Assembly: GCF_013409505.1 (NCBI RefSeq)
Contig: NZ_JACCBN010000001.1
Location: 4,030,001 to 4,094,000 of the forward strand
Length of the DNA stretch: 64,000 nucleotides
Source of the DNA: Actinomycetospora corticicola
Lineage (GTDB): Bacteria; Actinomycetota; Actinomycetes; Mycobacteriales; Pseudonocardiaceae
Direction: 5' to 3'
Translations under genes and position numbers: made by a program
Shown: piece by piece, positions 50,787-60,896 of the stretch
Position numbering within the stretch: the stretch's first letter is position 1
Layout of the letters: every line of letters starts with the position of its first letter
Notes under the pieces: model-generated
The model's input: only the letters and a program-made list of their open reading frames with translations
What the model was told of the DNA's origin: nothing
Databases searched by the model: none

Positions 50787-51605
50787 TCAGGCCTGCGAGC
50801 GGGAGCTGCGGGAGCCCAGGTGCAGCCGGGCGAACAGCAGCGACTCGGCGAGCGCGTCGAGGCGCTCGTTGCGGGTCCGGGCGCGGCGGGTGGAGATCTC
50901 GACCACCACCGTCCCGGCGAAACCGGTGAGGGCGAGCCGGCGGAGGACGTCCGCGCACGGCTGCGTGCCGCGACCGGGCACCAGGTGCTCGTCGTGGGTC
51001 TCGCCGGTGCCGTCGGCCAGGTGCAGGTGGACCAGCCGGTCGCCCATGCGTTCGAGCAGGGCGAAGGCGTCGTCGCCCGCGACCGCGGTGTGCGAGAGGT
51101 CGAGGGTGTAGTTCCGGGCGCCGGGCACCGTGGGGTCGTGCCCCGGGGTGTAGCTGGAGACCCGCACGCGGCCGCGGCGCAGCGGGAACATGTTCTCCAT
51201 CGCCACGAGCACCCCGTGGGCGCGCTCCAGCTCGTCGATCTGTCGGGCCAGGCCCGCCGCGTAGCGCCGCTGCCAGCGGAAGGGCGGGTGCAGGACGACG
51301 ACGGGGGCACCGAGCCCCGCCGCGAGCACCACGCTGCGGCGCAGCCGCTCCGCCGGGTCGGCGCCCCACACCCGCTGCGTGATGGCGAGGCACGGCGCGT
51401 GCACCGCGAGGACCGGCATGCCGGTGCGCTCGGCGTTCCGGGCGACGGTGCGCAGCTGCCGGGACTCCGGCTCGTTCCACACCATCAGCTCGACGCCGTC
51501 GTACCCCAGCTCCGCGGCCGCGTCGAACGCGGCCGACATCGGCTCGGGGTAGACCGACGCGGTCGAGAGCGCGACGGGGACCTGGGGAGCGGCCGGGAGG
51601 CTCAA
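50787..51605 (-). CDS. Xylose-isomerase-like TIM-barrel protein
   Basis: This 272-aa protein belongs to the sugar phosphate isomerase/epimerase (AP endonuclease 2) fold. Segments [47 protein letters not shown] and VVVEIST carry the expected metal-site Glu/His/Asp residues. It corresponds to Rv0498, of unknown substrate. The start is a TTG at 51605 overlapping the upstream stop as TTGA; no better start exists in frame. Confidence 0.82.
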
Positions 51606-53020
51606 CGAGCGAGCAGGACGAATGCGGCCGGCGACACGGTGACCACGAGACCGACGACGATCGCGAGCGCCATCGTCTGCAGGTCGTCGGAGCGCCGCAT
51701 CGCCCGGACCCCGAAGACCAGGCCACCGGTCGCCGCGGCCGCGAGGACCAGGGCGATCACGGGCTGGGTCTGCCACAGGTAGGAGAAGCCGATCCAGAGC
51801 AGCGCGCCGAGGACGGCGCCGACCACGAGCTGCGCCGCGATCACCGCCCACTCCTTGGCGTTCGGCCGCTCGGCGGGCTCGTCGTCGTACTCGTCGTCCC
51901 AGTCGTCGTCCACGTCGTCGTGGTCGTCGAGGTCGCGCTCGCGGCCGAGACCGGCGGGCGCGTCGGTGCGGGTGGCGTCCGGCCGGGCCGCGGGCGACGC
52001 GGCGGTGGGCGGGCCGCCGTCGGCGTCGGGCCGCGGGGTCGCCGTGGTGGGGGCGGAGGCCGCCCGCGCCGCGGCGGGCTGCACCTGCGTGGGGACGGCC
52101 GAGGTCGCCGCCGGCTGCGCCGTGGTGGGCGCCTCGGGCGGGGCTGGCCGCGCGGGCGGGGCGGCGGGGGTCACCGCGGTGGGCGCGGAGGGCGCCCAGG
52201 CCGGGGGCGCGCTCGTCGGCTGCGGGCCGGACCCGGACGGCGGGCCCGACTGCCGCGGCACCGCCGCCGGCGGCTGCCCGTAGGCGGGGGGCGCCGGGGA
52301 GGCCGGGGCGTAGCCGTACGACGACGGGCTGCCGTAGCCGCCGTAGGGGTCGGGCTCCGAGGCGTAGGACGGGGACCCGTAGGAGGACCCGGACGACGGG
52401 TAGGGCTCCGGCGCGGGGTCCGACCCGTAGCCGGACGCGTAGCCGTTCGACGGGTAACCGGTCGAGCCGTACCCCGCGGACCCGTAACCGGACGACCCGT
52501 ACCCGGACGAGCCGTAGCCGGACGACCCGTACCCGGACGAGCCGTAGCCCGACGAGCCGTGGTCGTTCGGGCCGTACCCGGTGGTCCCGTAGCCCGACGA
52601 CCCGGACCCCGACGAGCCGTAGCCGCCCGACGCGTAGCCCGAGGAGTACCCGTCGTCGTACGAGGAGCCGTAGGACGGGCCCTGGGACGAGCCGTAACCC
52701 CCCGAGGAGTAGCCGGAGGACGAGTACCCGGCCGAGCCGTACCCGCCGTCGTAGCCCGAGGGCCCGGCGGTGCCGTACCCGTCGTCGTAGGAGGAGCTGC
52801 GCCCGTACCCGGAGGAGCCGTAGGACGACCCGGGGTCCGGGTCGTAGCCGTAGGACCCGCCGCGGTCGGACGGGGCGTAGCCGGCGTCGCCGTAGGGGTC
52901 GCGGGGTTCGGGCTCGGGGGCCGGGGTGGGGGACGCCGAGCGCGACTCGGCGCCGTAGGCGGCGAGCAGCTCCGCCACACTGCGCTGAGCGCCCCGCGGG
53001 GGGGATCCGTCGGTCGTCAT
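51602..53020 (-). CDS. Membrane protein with a long Tyr/Gly/Ser-repeat domain
   Basis: This 472-aa protein starts with [10 protein letters not shown] (about 14-23), as in the Rv0497 group. A low-complexity domain at about 43-247 holds 37 tyrosines, many in GYGSS repeats, including a near-perfect run at 156-188. A Pro/Ala-rich linker and an acidic segment (about 360-385) follow, then three C-terminal membrane helices. The composition resembles FUS-type low-complexity domains that self-associate. ATG 53020 overlaps the ppx stop as ATGA. The function is unknown. Confidence 0.78.
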
Positions 53021-54036
53021 CCGTTCCACCGTGCCGTGGTCGGGGTCGGTCGTCCAGTCGCAGCAGGACGACCGGTGGTGTACGTCCCGTCAGCGGCGAA
53101 GGGACCGCCCTCGAGGGGCACCTGGTCCAGTCGGCCGAGGATCACGCCTTCACGCAGGGCCCACGGGCAGACCTCGACCTCCTCGAGGCCGAGGGCGTCC
53201 ATCGCGCCGCGCGCCACGATCGCGCCGGCCACGAGCTGGTGCGCCCGGGAGGCGCTCACGCCCTCGAGCTCGGCGAGGTCCGCGGAGTCCATCCGGCTGA
53301 TGAAGGCGACGACCTGACGCAACCCGGCCGCGGTGAGCCGGCGGTGCACCCGCGGCCCGGCCGAGCGCGGGGCGGCGCCGGTGAGCCGGGCCAGCGAGCG
53401 GAACGTCTTCGAGGTGACGACCGCGCGGTCGGGGGACCCGCCGTCGAGCAGGGCCGCCGCCGCGGGCGCCACGGTGTCGTGGACGTACTCGGCGAGGGCG
53501 CGGGTCTCCTTGCGGTCGGGCGGGTCCGCGGCGAACCAGTCGCGCGTGAGCCGTCCGGCGCCGAGCGGGAGGGAGAGGGCCACGTCGGGGCGCTCGTCGC
53601 GCCCGACCGCCATCTCCAGCGAGCCGCCGCCGATGTCGAGGGAGAGCAGCCGTCCGGCCGACCACCCGAACCAGCGGCGGACGGCGAGGAAGGTCAGCGC
53701 GGCCTCGTCGGGCCCGGTGAGGACCTGCAGGTCGACGCCGGTCTCCTCCCGCACCCGCGCGAGGACCGCGTCGGAGTTGTCGGCGTCGCGCACCGCGGAG
53801 GTGGCGAACGCCAGGAGGTCGTCGCACCCGAGCGCCCTCGCCTCGCGGCGCGCCTCGGCGACGGCGGACACGAGGGCGTCCGCGCCCTTGCGCGCGAGCT
53901 GCCCGCCGACGACGTGCTCGGCGAGGCGCAGCGCGGTCTTCGTGGAGGACTGCGGGGTCGGGTGCGCACCGCGATGCGCGTCGACCACGAGGAGGTGAAC
54001 CGTGTTCGACCCCACGTCGAGAACCCCGAGACGCAC
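53017..54036 (-). CDS. ppx: Exopolyphosphatase (Ppx/GppA family)
   Basis: This 339-aa protein hydrolyses polyphosphate or pppGpp. It has the actin-like ATPase folds [15 protein letters not shown] and [12 protein letters not shown] with [16 protein letters not shown] between them. It corresponds to the short Ppx1 type (Rv0496). It lies downstream of senX3-regX3, fitting phosphate metabolism. GTG 54036. Confidence 0.92.
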
Positions 54037-56143: not shown

Positions 56144-56899
56144 TCACCGGCCCTGGTTCGCCACCGCCGCGATCGCGTCCTTCGCCGCGTCCGGGTCCAG
56201 GTAGGTCCCGCCGGGGTTGGTGGGCCGCAGGTCGTCGCCGTCGGCCTCGAGGTCGTAGCGCAGCGGGATCCCCGTGGGGATGTTCAGCCCGGCGATGGTC
56301 TCGTCGTCGACGCCGTCCAGGTGCTTGACCACCGCCCGCAGCGAGTTCCCGTGCGCGGCGACGAGGACGGTGCGCCCGGCCCGCAGGTCGGGGACGACGG
56401 CCTCGGTCCAGTAGGGCAGCAGCCGCTCGAGCACGTCCTTCAGGCACTCGGTGCGCGGCAGCGCGTCGCCGAGGTCGGCGTAGCGGGGGTCACCGGTCTG
56501 GGCGTACTCGTCGTCGGGGTCGATCGGCGGCGGCGGCGTGTCGTAGGAGCGACGCCAGATCTGGAACTGCTCCTCCCCGTACTCCTCCATCGTCTGCTTC
56601 TTGTCCTTGCCCTGGAGCGCCCCGTAGTGGCGCTCGTTGAGCCGCCAGTCACGGCGCACCGGGATCCAGTGCCGGTCGCAGACGTCCAGCGCGATCTGGG
56701 CGGTGGCGATCGCCCGGCGCAGCAACGACGTGTGCAGCACGTCGGGGAGCAGCCCGGCCTCACCGAGGAGCTGGCCGCCCCGTCGGGCCTCCTGCTCACC
56801 GGTCGCGGAGAGCGGGACGTCGACCCACCCGGTGAAGAGGTTCTTCTCGTTCCACTCGCTCTGCCCGTGCCGCAGCAGTACCAGCGTCCCAACCGTCAT
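56144..56899 (-). CDS. gpmA: 2,3-Bisphosphoglycerate-dependent phosphoglycerate mutase
   Basis: GpmA (251 aa) interconverts 3- and 2-phosphoglycerate. It has the phosphohistidine motif [20 protein letters not shown], the segment [16 protein letters not shown] and the second His in [20 protein letters not shown] 56899. It lies immediately upstream of senX3, as in mycobacteria. Confidence 0.95.
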
Positions 56900-57054
56900 G
56901 GGCCCGGACCCTAACGGGCGAGGCCGGGGGCGTAGGAGCGATCGGCCGGGGGTAGCCGTCCCGCGACCGGGCGGGATGTCCGAGGAACGGTGCACCACGC
57001 TGCCGTCGGTCCGAGGGCGGACCGCCCCCATCCCCCCATCGAGAAGGAGCAGCG

Positions 57055-57426
57055 ATGAACGACGACGACATCACCACCTCCGGGTCGAACCCGGGCCACG
57101 GGCCCTCCGACGGCGGCGCCGCGGGTGGCGGCTCGGACGGCGGCGCCGACGGCGGTGCCGGTCACGGCCCGGCCGACGGCGGCGCGGCGGGCAACGGCTC
57201 CGACGGCGGTGCCGACGGCGGTGCGGGCCACGGCCCCGCTGACGGCGGTGCGTCCGGCGGCGGGTCCGACGGCGGCGCCGACGGCGGCGCGGGCCACGGC
57301 CCGGCCGACGGCGGCGCGTCCGGCAACGGGTCCGACGGTGGCGCCGACGGCGGAGCGGGCCACGGGCCGGCCGACGGTGGCGCCAAGGGCGGCGGCTCCG
57401 ACGGCGGGGCCGACGGCGGCGCGTAG
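57055..57426 (+). CDS. DGGA/GHGP-repeat protein (BatC-like), putative modification substrate
   Basis: This 123-aa acidic protein consists of a 13-residue leader ([13 protein letters not shown]) and five tandem 22-residue repeats (residues 14-123), consensus [20 protein letters not shown] plus GA. Each repeat has one His and three DGGA units, giving 15 in total. Aromatic and Cys residues are absent and the protein is surely disordered. Similar short DGGA proteins are annotated 'BatC' in actinobacteria; no function is known. ATG 57055 has AAGGAG 6 bp upstream. The adjacent JmjC oxygenase suggests that the repeats are hydroxylated; this is inference. Confidence 0.75.
57094..57423 (+). repeat. 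Five tandem 66-bp repeats
   Basis: The coding repeat units are 66 bp long and highly similar at the DNA level, with differences mostly at third positions and at the two variable residues. This indicates expansion by unequal exchange with protein-level constraint. Confidence 0.85.
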
Positions 57427-57434
57427 GTGCTTCG

Positions 57435-57480
57435 CAGGTGAGCACTAAGAGGGGCTATAGGCCCACTTAGTGCTCACCTG
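57435..57480 (+). terminator. Perfect 15-bp inverted repeat between the repeat-protein gene and the JmjC gene
   Basis: Arms CAGGTGAGCACTAAG (57435-57449) and CTTAGTGCTCACCTG (57466-57480) flank a 16-nt loop that can add an inner GGGC/GCCC stem. It starts 8 bp past the repeat-protein stop. It could be an attenuator giving more repeat protein than enzyme, or an operator for the downstream genes. Confidence 0.7.
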
Positions 57481-57502
57481 GCGCAGCCACATTGGAGGAC
57501 AC

Positions 57503-58795
57503 ATGACCCACCGCCCCTTCCTGCGCCGCTGTGTCGCCGGCGACCTCGACGCCTTCGCCGACGAGGCGTGGGGCCGACAGGCGGTGCTCTCGCGCGCCGA
57601 CGACCTCGCGAAGGACGGCGACCCCGACGCCGAGCGCGGCTTCGGCGACCTGTTCTCCCTCGACGCCGTCGACGAGCTGCTCTCCCGACGCGGCCTGCGC
57701 ACGCCGTTCCTGCGCGTCGCGAAGCAGGGCACGGTCGTCGACTCGAAGCACTTCACCGGCGACGGCGGCGTCGGCGCCGAGGTCACCGACCAGGTCCGCG
57801 ACGACCGGATCGCCGGGCTCTTCGCCGACGGCCACACCGTGGTGCTGCAGGGCGTGCACCGCACGTGGGACCCGGTGGCCCACCTCGCCACCGGCCTGAA
57901 CGCCGACCTCGGCCACCCCGTGCAGGTCAACGCCTACATCACCCCGCCGTCGTCCACCGGCTTCTCCGCGCACTACGACGTGCACGACGTCTTCGTCCTG
58001 CAGATCGCGGGCACCAAGCGCTGGCACGTCCACGCGCCGGTACACCCCGACCCGTTGCGCAACCAGCCCTGGAACGACCACGCGGCCGCCGTGCGCGAGC
58101 AGGCTGCAGGCGAACCCCTGCTCGACGAGGTCCTCCACCCCGGCGACGCGCTCTACCTGCCCCGCGGCTTCCTGCACTCCGCGACCGCGCAGGGCGAGGT
58201 CTCCGCCCACCTCACGGTCGGCATCCACGTCCTCACCCGCCACGCCGTGCTCGAGACCCTCCTCGCCGGCCTCGCCGACGACCCCGAGCTGCGGGCCTCC
58301 CTGCCGCTCGGCGTGGACGTCGCCGACCCGGCCGCGCTCGCCCCGCACGTCGAGGCCGTCGCCCGGAAGGCCGCCGAGTACTTCGGCCGGCCCCTCGACG
58401 CCGGACGGACCTCGCGGCGTCTGCGCGGGCGCGTCTGGAACGGCAACCGGCCCGAGTCGCTGCTGCCGCTGCGCCAGGCCGCGGCGATCGCCGCCCTCGA
58501 CGCGGAGTCCGTCGTCCGGCCGCGCCTCGGGCTCCGTCATCGGACTCTTCCCGACGCCGGGTCGGGGAAGGTCGTGCTCGACCTCCCCGACCGCTCGCTG
58601 GAGTTCCCCGCGGCGGCGGCGACCCCGCTCGCGACGCTGCTCGCGGGCGGTCCGGTGCGCCTCGGGGACGTGCCCGAGGACGAGGCCGGCGACGCGACGG
58701 TGGTCGCGCGACGGCTGTTGAAGGAAGGTGTCCTGGTGACGCCCGATGCGGTCACTGGCGCCGATCAGCGTGATGGAGGTACGACGGACACGTGA
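57503..58795 (+). CDS. JmjC/cupin 2-oxoglutarate oxygenase (ribosomal-oxygenase-like)
   Basis: This 430-aa protein has the cupin core of YcfD/MINA53/NO66-type ribosomal oxygenases. The iron triad is H157-x-D159 (in GFSAHYDVHDVFVLQIAG) and H225 (YLPRGFLHSATA); KRWHVHAP follows with the expected Lys for 2-oxoglutarate. A C-terminal winged-helix-like region completes it. Relatives hydroxylate Arg or His in ribosomal proteins. Here it stands next to a His-containing repeat protein, a candidate substrate. ATG 57503 has GGAGG 4 bp upstream; the stop overlaps the next gene as GTGA. Confidence 0.87.
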   Translation: MTHRPFLRRCVAGDLDAFADEAWGRQAVLSRADDLAKDGDPDAERGFGDLFSLDAVDELLSRRGLRTPFLRVAKQGTVVDSKHFTGDGGVGAEVTDQVRDDRIAGLFADGHTVVLQGVHRTWDPVAHLATGLNADLGHPVQVNAYITPPSSTGFSAHYDVHDVFVLQIAGTKRWHVHAPVHPDPLRNQPWNDHAAAVREQAAGEPLLDEVLHPGDALYLPRGFLHSATAQGEVSAHLTVGIHVLTRHAVLETLLAGLADDPELRASLPLGVDVADPAALAPHVEAVARKAAEYFGRPLDAGRTSRRLRGRVWNGNRPESLLPLRQAAAIAALDAESVVRPRLGLRHRTLPDAGSGKVVLDLPDRSLEFPAAAATPLATLLAGGPVRLGDVPEDEAGDATVVARRLLKEGVLVTPDAVTGADQRDGGTTDT

Positions 58796-59733
58796 CGGCG
58801 GAATCACTGACCCGGCAGGACCCGGCGGACGACCCGACGCAGTTCCGCTGTTCGGCCGCCGCCCGCGAACGGGACGACCCGCTGTTCGCCTCCGCCCCGC
58901 CCGCCCGGCGCTGGCTCCTCGTGGAGCACCCCGGGCCGTGGGGCTTCCAGGCGCTCGGCGGCGCGGGCTTCTCCGCCCCCGTCGTCGAGGCGATCGACGA
59001 GTTCTGCCGCACCCACGAGGCACGCTTCCAGCTGATCCGCCGCACCGCCGCGCGCGGTGCTCCCACGGAGGCCGGCGGCCGCTTCGCCGTCGTCGACTCC
59101 CGGATCGGCCACGAGTCGGTGCGCTGGGGCCGGGTGGACTCGCCCGAGGCGCTGCCGAACGCCCTCGCCGACCTCGAGGCGTCCACGACGCCGTCGGACG
59201 ATCCCGTCTACCTGGTGTGCGCCCACGGCCGGCACGACGCGTGCTGCGCCATGCGCGGTCGCCCGGTGGCGGCGGTACTGGCGACCGAGTTCGCCGACCG
59301 CACCTGGGAGACCACGCACACCGGCGGGGACCGCTTCGCGGCCAACGTCGTACTGCTCCCCCACGGCCTCATCCTGGGACGGGTCCCCGCCACGGACGCG
59401 GTCCGCGTCGCCGAACGCTACGACGCCGGCGAGGTCGACCCGACGATGGTCCGCGGCCGCGCGGGGCTCGCGCCGGCCGTGCAGGGCGCCCAGCACCACG
59501 CCCGGCTCGCGCTCTCCGAGCACCGGGTGGCGGCACTCGCGCCGCTCGAGGTCACGCCCGACCCGACCGAGCCCGCCGTCGTGACCGTGCGGCTGGCCGG
59601 GCCCGAGGGACCGCTCGACGTCACCGTGCGGGAGCGGTGGATCCCTTCCGCGACCCCGCTGACCTGCAACGCGGGCCGTAACGCCTCGATGCGGACCTAC
59701 GACCTGGTGTCGCTCGGCCCGACCCGCCCGTAG
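58792..59733 (+). CDS. Sucrase/ferredoxin-like thioredoxin-fold Fe-S protein
   Basis: This 313-aa protein belongs to the sucrase/ferredoxin-like (Apd1/Aim32-related) family. It has C20 in FRCSAAA, the cluster-region motif VCAHGRHDACCAMRG, then THTGGDRFAANVVLLPHG with a conserved His, and a C-terminal CNAGR. Yeast relatives bind a 2Fe-2S cluster with Cys and His ligands. It is translationally coupled to the JmjC gene and may supply electrons to it. GTG 58792. The 3' end overlaps the convergent acyltransferase by 37 bp. Confidence 0.83.
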   Translation: MTAESLTRQDPADDPTQFRCSAAARERDDPLFASAPPARRWLLVEHPGPWGFQALGGAGFSAPVVEAIDEFCRTHEARFQLIRRTAARGAPTEAGGRFAVVDSRIGHESVRWGRVDSPEALPNALADLEASTTPSDDPVYLVCAHGRHDACCAMRGRPVAAVLATEFADRTWETTHTGGDRFAANVVLLPHGLILGRVPATDAVRVAERYDAGEVDPTMVRGRAGLAPAVQGAQHHARLALSEHRVAALAPLEVTPDPTEPAVVTVRLAGPEGPLDVTVRERWIPSATPLTCNAGRNASMRTYDLVSLGPTRP

Positions 59734-60896
59734 CGGCCGGGTCCGGCGTCCCACCAGGCCATCAGGCGGCGGTGGACCGGGCGTTCCACGGACTTCGTCA
59801 GGAGCCACCCGCACAGGACCCCGGTGACGATCATGAGGCCGGTCTGCAGCGTGGGGCCGACCCCGAGCTGCTGGGCCCGGCGCATCACCACGTAGCCGAC
59901 GGTCTGGTGGGTGAGGAAGACGCCGTAGGAGATGCCCGCGAGCCAGGTGACGGCGCGGTTGACTCGGTCGGGCAGCCGGTCACCCCAGTCGGGGCCGACG
60001 GCGGCCAGGGTCATCGCGACGATCCCGCACCCGATGAGGACGACGGCGGTCCAGTCGGTGTCCCACCCGGTGGTGGGGTCCAGCGCCGACGTCTGCAGCG
60101 CGTGCTCACCGATCGCGGCGATCTCGAGCGCGAGGAAGTGCGGCAGGCGCAGGCGGCCGGTCGAGTACATCCAGACCGCCACGCCGGCGACGAAGAGGTG
60201 CCAGCGGAAGATGCCGAGGCCGTCGACGACGTACCCGTACATCGTCCCGACGGGGAGCGTGGCCCGGTAGTACCACTGTGCGGCGGGCACGAGGACCGCG
60301 AGCCACAGCACCACCCGGAGTCCGACGCCGCGGCCGAGCGGGCCGCGCCACATCACCGCGGCCAGGCAGAACGCCATCAGCTGCAGCGGGATCGTCCAGT
60401 ACGAGCCGTCGACGAAGCCCCAGCTGGGGTCCCAGTGCCAGAGCATCACCAGGTTGGCCAGCAGGTCCCGCTTCCCCGGCAGGTACCAGCCGTCGGGAGC
60501 GAGGTAGCGCAGGAAGAGCCAGGCGTTCACCGTCGCGACGAAGAACGCGGGCAGCAGCCGGGCGAGCTTGCCCCACCACCAGCGGGCGGTCCCGCCGCGT
60601 CGGGCGCCGCCCCGCCGCACGGTCGCCGCCACGAAGTAGGCGGACAGGACCAGCAGCAGGCTCGCCCCGACCTGGTGCGGGAACGTGTAGTTCTTCGGCA
60701 GGATGTCGTGGTAGACGAGCGGGCCGATGAACGTCGAGTGGTAGAGCATCACCAGCAGGACGAACCCGCAGCGCAGGACGTCCCAGCTCACCCGTCGCGA
60801 CGACCCGCCGGGGGTCTTCTTCGGCGCGCCCGCCGTGCTCGGGACGTGCGTCGCCGGCGAGGCCGGTTGCTGCACGATGTCGGTCACCGCGGGCAC
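59697..60896 (-). CDS. Acyltransferase-3 family membrane protein
   Basis: This 399-aa protein has about ten membrane helices. The catalytic-His region appears as LLVMLYHSTFIGPLVYHD, followed by SLLLVLSAYFVAA and WWWGKLARLLPAFFV, typical of family-3 acyltransferases that modify exported sugars. GTG 60896 has no strong ribosome-binding site; GTG 60884-60887 is an alternative. The tail (59697-59733) overlaps the sucrase/ferredoxin gene on the other strand. Confidence 0.83.
   Translation of the reverse strand: MPAVTDIVQQPASPATHVPSTAGAPKKTPGGSSRRVSWDVLRCGFVLLVMLYHSTFIGPLVYHDILPKNYTFPHQVGASLLLVLSAYFVAATVRRGGARRGGTARWWWGKLARLLPAFFVATVNAWLFLRYLAPDGWYLPGKRDLLANLVMLWHWDPSWGFVDGSYWTIPLQLMAFCLAAVMWRGPLGRGVGLRVVLWLAVLVPAAQWYYRATLPVGTMYGYVVDGLGIFRWHLFVAGVAVWMYSTGRLRLPHFLALEIAAIGEHALQTSALDPTTGWDTDWTAVVLIGCGIVAMTLAAVGPDWGDRLPDRVNRAVTWLAGISYGVFLTHQTVGYVVMRRAQQLGVGPTLQTGLMIVTGVLCGWLLTKSVERPVHRRLMAWWDAGPGRYGRVGPSDTRS

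Follow-up and report, generated by a model that had tools for sequence, protein, structure and literature searches.

What does a JmjC oxygenase act on when its gene follows that of a small, acidic repeat protein? The question is raised by the locus at positions 57055-59733 of a 64,000-nucleotide stretch of the Actinomycetospora corticicola genome (contig NZ_JACCBN010000001.1, positions 4,030,001 to 4,094,000; hereafter, the window). Three plus-strand genes encoding a repeat protein, a JmjC_2 oxygenase and a Suc_Fer-like protein are located here, with the following features:

57055-57426, + strand: gene for the repeat (precursor) protein, 123 amino acids (open reading frame and homologues)
57055-57078, + strand: N-terminal signature MNDDDITT, leader-like and conserved across loci
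57094-57423, + strand: five 22-residue repeats, GHGP(A/S)..., with three Asp each
57503-58795, + strand: gene for a JmjC_2 (PF08007) 2-oxoglutarate oxygenase of predicted NO66/MINA53/YcfD fold, 430 amino acids (Pfam, alignment and model)
58792-59733, + strand: gene for a Suc_Fer-like (PF06999) protein, 313 amino acids, GTG start, thioredoxin-like ferredoxin fold predicted

The data point to a dedicated substrate-plus-enzyme cassette of Actinomycetota, in which the JmjC enzyme would hydroxylate aspartates of the repeat protein. We regard this reading as moderately probable as a whole; taken separately, it is very likely that the repeat protein is the substrate of the enzyme, and probable that Asp is the modified residue. 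The argument is built on the conserved adjacency of the genes, the kept catalytic residues, a shared N-terminal signature, a repeat type that follows the enzyme tree and a predicted fold. A preliminary description of the locus had listed three co-oriented genes, five repeats and an intact H157/D159/H225 triad, and all of these are present as described. AAGGAG precedes the ATG of the repeat gene, and the start of the Suc_Fer-like gene overlaps the JmjC stop by 4 nucleotides. The host genome contains a single PF08007 match and one clear repeat gene, a second repeat match reaching only E 0.147. The nearest named relatives of the JmjC protein belong to Actinomycetospora.

In 75 of the 80 named loci, the JmjC gene is preceded within 500 nucleotides by the repeat gene, which in L073 ends 461 nucleotides short of the JmjC match and of which L114 has just the last 12 residues; the remaining five have less than 140 nucleotides of upstream sequence. 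The named loci come from, among others, Actinomycetospora, Pseudonocardia, Saccharopolyspora, Amycolatopsis, Actinokineospora, Kribbella, Geodermatophilus, Modestobacter, Blastococcus, Paractinoplanes, Micromonospora, Cellulomonas, Agromyces, Leifsonia, Dietzia and Rhodococcoides. As a control, the repeat-search rule was satisfied at 35 of 1046 random positions in the named loci, and six or more DGG-like motifs were present in 73 of the 75 cassette loci versus 2 of the 1046 random positions. The JmjC gene was found in 17 of 18 genomes of the genus. Among 61 relatives, the repeat profile matched 25 genomes, 24 of the matches being directly upstream of a JmjC gene; the 25th (G003, a genome 83% complete and without a JmjC match) sits at a contig end. 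A 296-genome sample of the phylum has JmjC relatives in 42 genomes, and the profile of the window's repeat type (DGGA) matches nine, all nine adjoining the JmjC gene (Fisher p ~1e-8 for presence alone, with independence overstated by the relatedness of the genomes). The profile counts are lower bounds, since DGGA genes are visible by eye but unmatched in G037, G051, G052 and G055 (loci L026, L021, L027 and L024). When the distant precursor types described below are included, a leader/Asp-rich open reading frame is found by eye directly upstream in 36 of the 40 JmjC-bearing genomes of this sample that have upstream sequence; the other two of the 42 end at a contig edge. A neighbourhood conserved across genera, proposed earlier as a check, was thus found both in the named loci and in the phylum sample.

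The repeats of the window protein are exactly 22 residues long, start at residues 14, 36, 58, 80 and 102, and carry, besides the three Asp, one His within GHGP. Codon differences between repeats amount to 35% at third, 8.2% at first and 4.5% at second positions. The DNA varies mainly at third codon positions, so the protein sequence is kept under selection; a chance low-complexity frame was rejected on this pattern and on the random-position control. The protein is strongly acidic (pI, isoelectric point, ~4.05), contains 43.5% Gly and, judging by composition alone, is probably disordered. It gave no match at E 0.1 in Pfam and NCBIfam, and its relatives, where a source gives them a name, are called 'hypothetical protein' or, for 1 of 20, 'BatC protein'. 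A loose form of the leader pattern is present in 114 of 137 loci; nine of the 23 misses are contig edges or partial genes, and 14 are real. In L094, L096, L113 and L139 the leader was picked on the wrong stretch, and the true starts there do carry the motif.

The cores behind the leader are of several types. Among 75 named precursors, repeat units have HGP only in 19, Glu only (EGP and similar) in 42, both in seven and neither in seven. Remoter relatives, with JmjC proteins 34-43% identical, have a different small protein at the same site with a similar start (e.g., TDEDIxT), followed by Asp repeats such as DGTDGDATDG or DADASDADA, usually without His; no His follows the leader in 16 of 20 distant loci. 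A profile search from eight distant-type precursors yielded 377 relatives. Among the 120 of them listed, the leader pattern lies within 60 residues in 114, His is absent after it in 110 of these 114, and the commonest residue after it is Asp (29.3%). Asp is common to every core type seen; the spacing from one Asp to the next is mostly 2-3 residues in the distant cores, versus 4 or 9 in those of the DGGA type.

In a tree of 95 JmjC rows, the DGGA type occupies one side of a branch with a Shimodaira-Hasegawa-like approximate likelihood ratio (SH-aLRT) of 96. Repeat type changes three times in all, versus a shuffled mean of 34.8; two changes are required for the distant Asp type and three for the no-precursor type. 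Type labels were set by hand, every third named locus was kept and rows shorter than 230 amino acids were dropped. Left out were 14 loci, comprising contig edges, duplicates of the window sequence, and L033, L099, L126 and L040, the last being the only close JmjC without precursor; long branches make the placement of unlinked paralogues unsure. An enzyme with a substrate of its own should show such agreement between repeat type and enzyme tree.

The JmjC protein matches PF08007 with E 1.4e-27. H157, D159, H225, Tyr145 and K172, which we take to be the 2-oxoglutarate ligand, are identical in all 22 rows of an alignment that includes the window protein. The AlphaFold model (predicted local distance difference test, pLDDT, 89.4) has its best PDB matches in NO66, MINA53 and YcfD (TM-score over the query 0.47-0.63), and all the top 33 ranked structures are entries of these three proteins. 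The enzyme thus combines PF08007 and the HxD...H triad with a predicted ribosomal oxygenase (ROX) fold. It also shares the substrate-side Tyr of NO66 and MINA53: Tyr328 of NO66 aligns to Tyr145. Ser421, however, aligns to Gly240 (chain numbering is shifted by 181 relative to that of the paper), which is invariant in the 22 rows, so that the Ser holding the substrate His in NO66 and MINA53 is missing. According to that paper, Ser421/Ser257 of NO66/MINA53, with Tyr328 of NO66, hold the substrate His, while in simulations an Asn side chain is too short for reaching the Ser, and Asn peptides act as inhibitors (PMC9994133). A site with the Tyr kept and the Ser dropped would fit a short side chain such as that of Asp. 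The other difference from the ribosomal oxygenases is that the enzyme is genetically tied to a repeat protein.

In the proposed cassette, the conserved N-terminal segment of the small protein (xDDDITT) would serve as the recognition segment bound by the ROX-type JmjC enzyme, which would hydroxylate Asp along the fast-changing tandem-repeat core, probably at C-3. The thioredoxin-like ferredoxin would be an optional partner and may keep the enzyme iron reduced. The product would be polyanionic and modified, might be produced under stress and might bind metal ions or water; its role could lie in metal binding, in hydration during stress or in supplying peptides. The earlier proposal that the repeat protein is the substrate has gained from the conserved linkage and shared history, and the hydroxylation itself is inferred. 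Asp beta-hydroxylation in ribosomal peptides, as proposed here, is described for SmaO/SmaX (PMC13097080) and PesHI (PMC13060819); the likeness drawn here is one of reaction, and tandem Asp repeats are not seen in the accessible parts of these sources. A literature search, with subscription papers mostly outside it, found no description of such a system, in line with the preliminary description, which knew of none, and the strings DGGADGG, GPADGGA and DGDATDG occurred nowhere in the same literature. JmjC_2 enzymes of Actinomycetota, currently named cupin or NO66-like, hence gain a concrete encoded substrate candidate, and the substrate question becomes testable with two genes in a single laboratory strain. 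Bulk hydroxylation of Asp, if it occurs, would add a new activity to the ribosomal-oxygenase fold and define a modified repeat protein of a new kind. A bolder extension, which we hold to be speculative and rather unlikely, is that poly-(beta-hydroxyaspartate) proteins made on the ribosome form a class across the phylum. The three hydroxylated Asp of each repeat would then make up a six-donor metal site, and such a protein, encoded and countable, would chelate or buffer Fe(III) or Ca(II) and be charged only where oxygen, 2-oxoglutarate and iron are all available.

Several observations weigh against Asp hydroxylation by a dedicated enzyme. His occurs within the core of 65 of the 75 named DGGA precursors. 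Asp in DGGA cores is matched in constancy by Gly and Ala, and charge alone could be the reason for keeping it. The leader has decayed in some DGGA loci (L028, L036, L039 and L106), and in L050 and L172 the JmjC gene follows cores of other, rare types, made of SADGTDQGVEGGTYGPRDA and GPTEDDENLDAPGEHSQDTGDE repeats. A precursor is lacking in 4 of the 40 phylum-sample genomes, namely G197, whose locus (L040, JmjC 49% identical) has an acidic upstream open reading frame without leader or repeats, and the weak matches G220, G240 and G303 (30-33% identity). Moreover, 12 of 19 further loci with JmjC proteins ~30-39% identical have no leader and Asp-repeat frame. As the other seven, at similar identity, do have one, the system is bounded by tree position and not by identity alone.

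The leading alternative is a multi-core ribosomally synthesized and post-translationally modified peptide (RiPP), whose repeats would be modified and cleaved to short peptides for export as a natural product, with the conserved start acting as a leader. The gene arrangement would suit it, in that a putative leader-core precursor with a hypervariable, repeated core adjoins a tailoring oxygenase. A precedent is found in the work on biphenomycin, where the JmjC enzyme BipG, an ornithine gamma-hydroxylase, also acts on a neighbouring ribosomal precursor peptide (PMC12707348). BipG, likened here by description and not by alignment, modifies a different residue than proposed for the cassette, and its cluster adds radical S-adenosylmethionine (rSAM), multinuclear non-heme iron-dependent oxidative (MNIO), metallopeptidase and transporter genes, while here there are two or three genes (PMC12707348). 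Within 8 kb of the 80 loci, nothing other than JmjC, Suc_Fer, their antisense shadows and the repeat gene recurred in more than 7 of 28 hand-assigned genus labels (blastp E 1e-15, frames of at least 60 amino acids; shorter or very divergent genes could escape), and thus no protease, exporter or cyclase. The same gene content across many genera is also unlike a secondary-metabolite cluster. A general Pfam scan, as distinct from dedicated RRE models, matched no PqqD-like RiPP recognition element (RRE) domain in either the JmjC or the Suc_Fer protein. Altogether, we consider a RiPP rather unlikely.

The repeat protein may instead be what we would call a stress hydrophilin, its Asp repeats serving only hydration and disorder and any JmjC modification being minor or elsewhere on the protein. 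The Gly content and acidity would agree with this, as would the SigB-type promoter motif found in part of the lineages (see below), but the attached oxygenase gene is left unexplained, and we consider such a role unlikely.

Hydroxylation of the GHGP histidines, in the manner of NO66 and MINA53, has in its favour that these His hydroxylases are the closest solved folds and that every repeat in the window offers one His, as do the cores of most named DGGA precursors. As a general target, put forward in the preliminary description, this His was rejected: 42 of the 75 named precursors have the Glu form only, and the distant cores are mostly His-free. Asp is favoured over it by these cores and by the alignment of the His-holding Ser with the invariant Gly, and His hydroxylation is accordingly very unlikely. 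The least credible reading, which PF08007 membership and the ranked structures might suggest, makes the enzyme a ribosomal oxygenase and the repeat protein a regulator or bystander; against it stand the linkage of the JmjC gene to the repeat gene, the history that the two share, and the patchy presence in 42 of 296 genomes.

The Suc_Fer-like protein of the cassette matches PF06999 (E 1.4e-16) and is predicted to carry an Fe-S cluster. Its gene is directly downstream in 69 of the 80 named loci; the other 11 are from four Paractinoplanes, two Micromonospora, Asanoa, Verrucosispora, Pseudonocardia kunmingensis, Kribbella sandramycini and Motilibacter. In the phylum sample, adjacency was seen by eye in 32 of the 42 genomes, and PF06999 had no match in five of the 42, of which G239 has a cut-off relative at a contig end and G220 is an unlinked paralogue. 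The Fe-S gene is a frequent, dispensable partner. The idea that its product is a required electron donor is weakened by these exceptions, and we know of no 2-oxoglutarate hydroxylase of JmjC fold that needs a ferredoxin. The top matches of the Suc_Fer model are Aquifex thioredoxin-like [2Fe-2S] ferredoxins (probability 0.99-1.00, E ~0.06), none reaching E 0.001. A Cx8C pattern is present in 106 of 125 Suc_Fer frames, some of them partial. The second motif, matched in 109, reads HxGGD in 99, HxGGC in nine (at least one in Geodermatophilus) and HxGGE in one; a second His ligand, presumably spaced as HxxxH, was not found in these frames. The fold predicted here and Cx8C are shared with yeast Apd1/Aim32, which are described as bis-histidinyl (PMC8482512), in contrast to HxGGD/C/E in the cassette. 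This suggests that the cassette protein uses another cluster ligand.

Two putative expression signals flank the repeat gene:

56930-56954, + strand: SigB/SigF-type promoter-like motif GNNT-N16-GGGTA, 100 nucleotides before the repeat gene (sequence match)
57435-57480, + strand: intercistronic hairpin, an inverted repeat with 23-nucleotide arms between the repeat and JmjC genes (z -6.28)

The upstream motif resembles SigB-type promoters of Streptomyces, whose consensus was taken from PMC8346170. With start codons picked by rule in 68 of the 75 loci, GNNT-N14-16-GGGTA was found in 28 of 68 cassette upstreams versus 7 of 327 control upstreams, and on the opposite strand in 12 of 68 (shuffles 1.5). 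It was seen in 11 of 25 genus labels only; it was absent from the other 14, and none of the 19 Geodermatophilus, Geodermatophilus-like, Modestobacter and Blastococcus upstreams had it. The stricter GTTT-N12-18-GGGTA occurred in 1 of 68 upstreams, and in 4 of 68 on the opposite strand. The inverted repeat was missing from the preliminary description. A stable hairpin (z < -3) just after the repeat stop was found in 42 of 75 loci versus 4 of 150 stretches inside JmjC genes; its sequence varies among genera, and it may lower enzyme output relative to substrate. Upstream matches to an IdeR/DtxR iron box, for which we assumed the consensus, were no better than shuffles, which weakens a role in iron starvation. 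Rfam at the gathering threshold gave nothing in 56800-59900, and neither a sigma70-type promoter nor a T-tailed terminator was found in 56800-60000.

Elsewhere in the window, a 475-residue open reading frame at 51602-53029 (minus strand) encodes a long repeat rich in Tyr, Gly and Ser (SGYGSSGYG), with a C-terminal part that is hydrophobic; its neighbour looks like what we take to be a Ppx/GppA phosphatase. L157, L158 and L161 contain paralogous JmjC_2 genes, ~33-34% identical. Other small open reading frames lie upstream in L158 and L161 (..SGLLLGVETLSVAV.. and ..EGLVLGVERTPIV..), Suc_Fer is downstream in L157 and L158, and these paralogues are perhaps a second JmjC precursor system.
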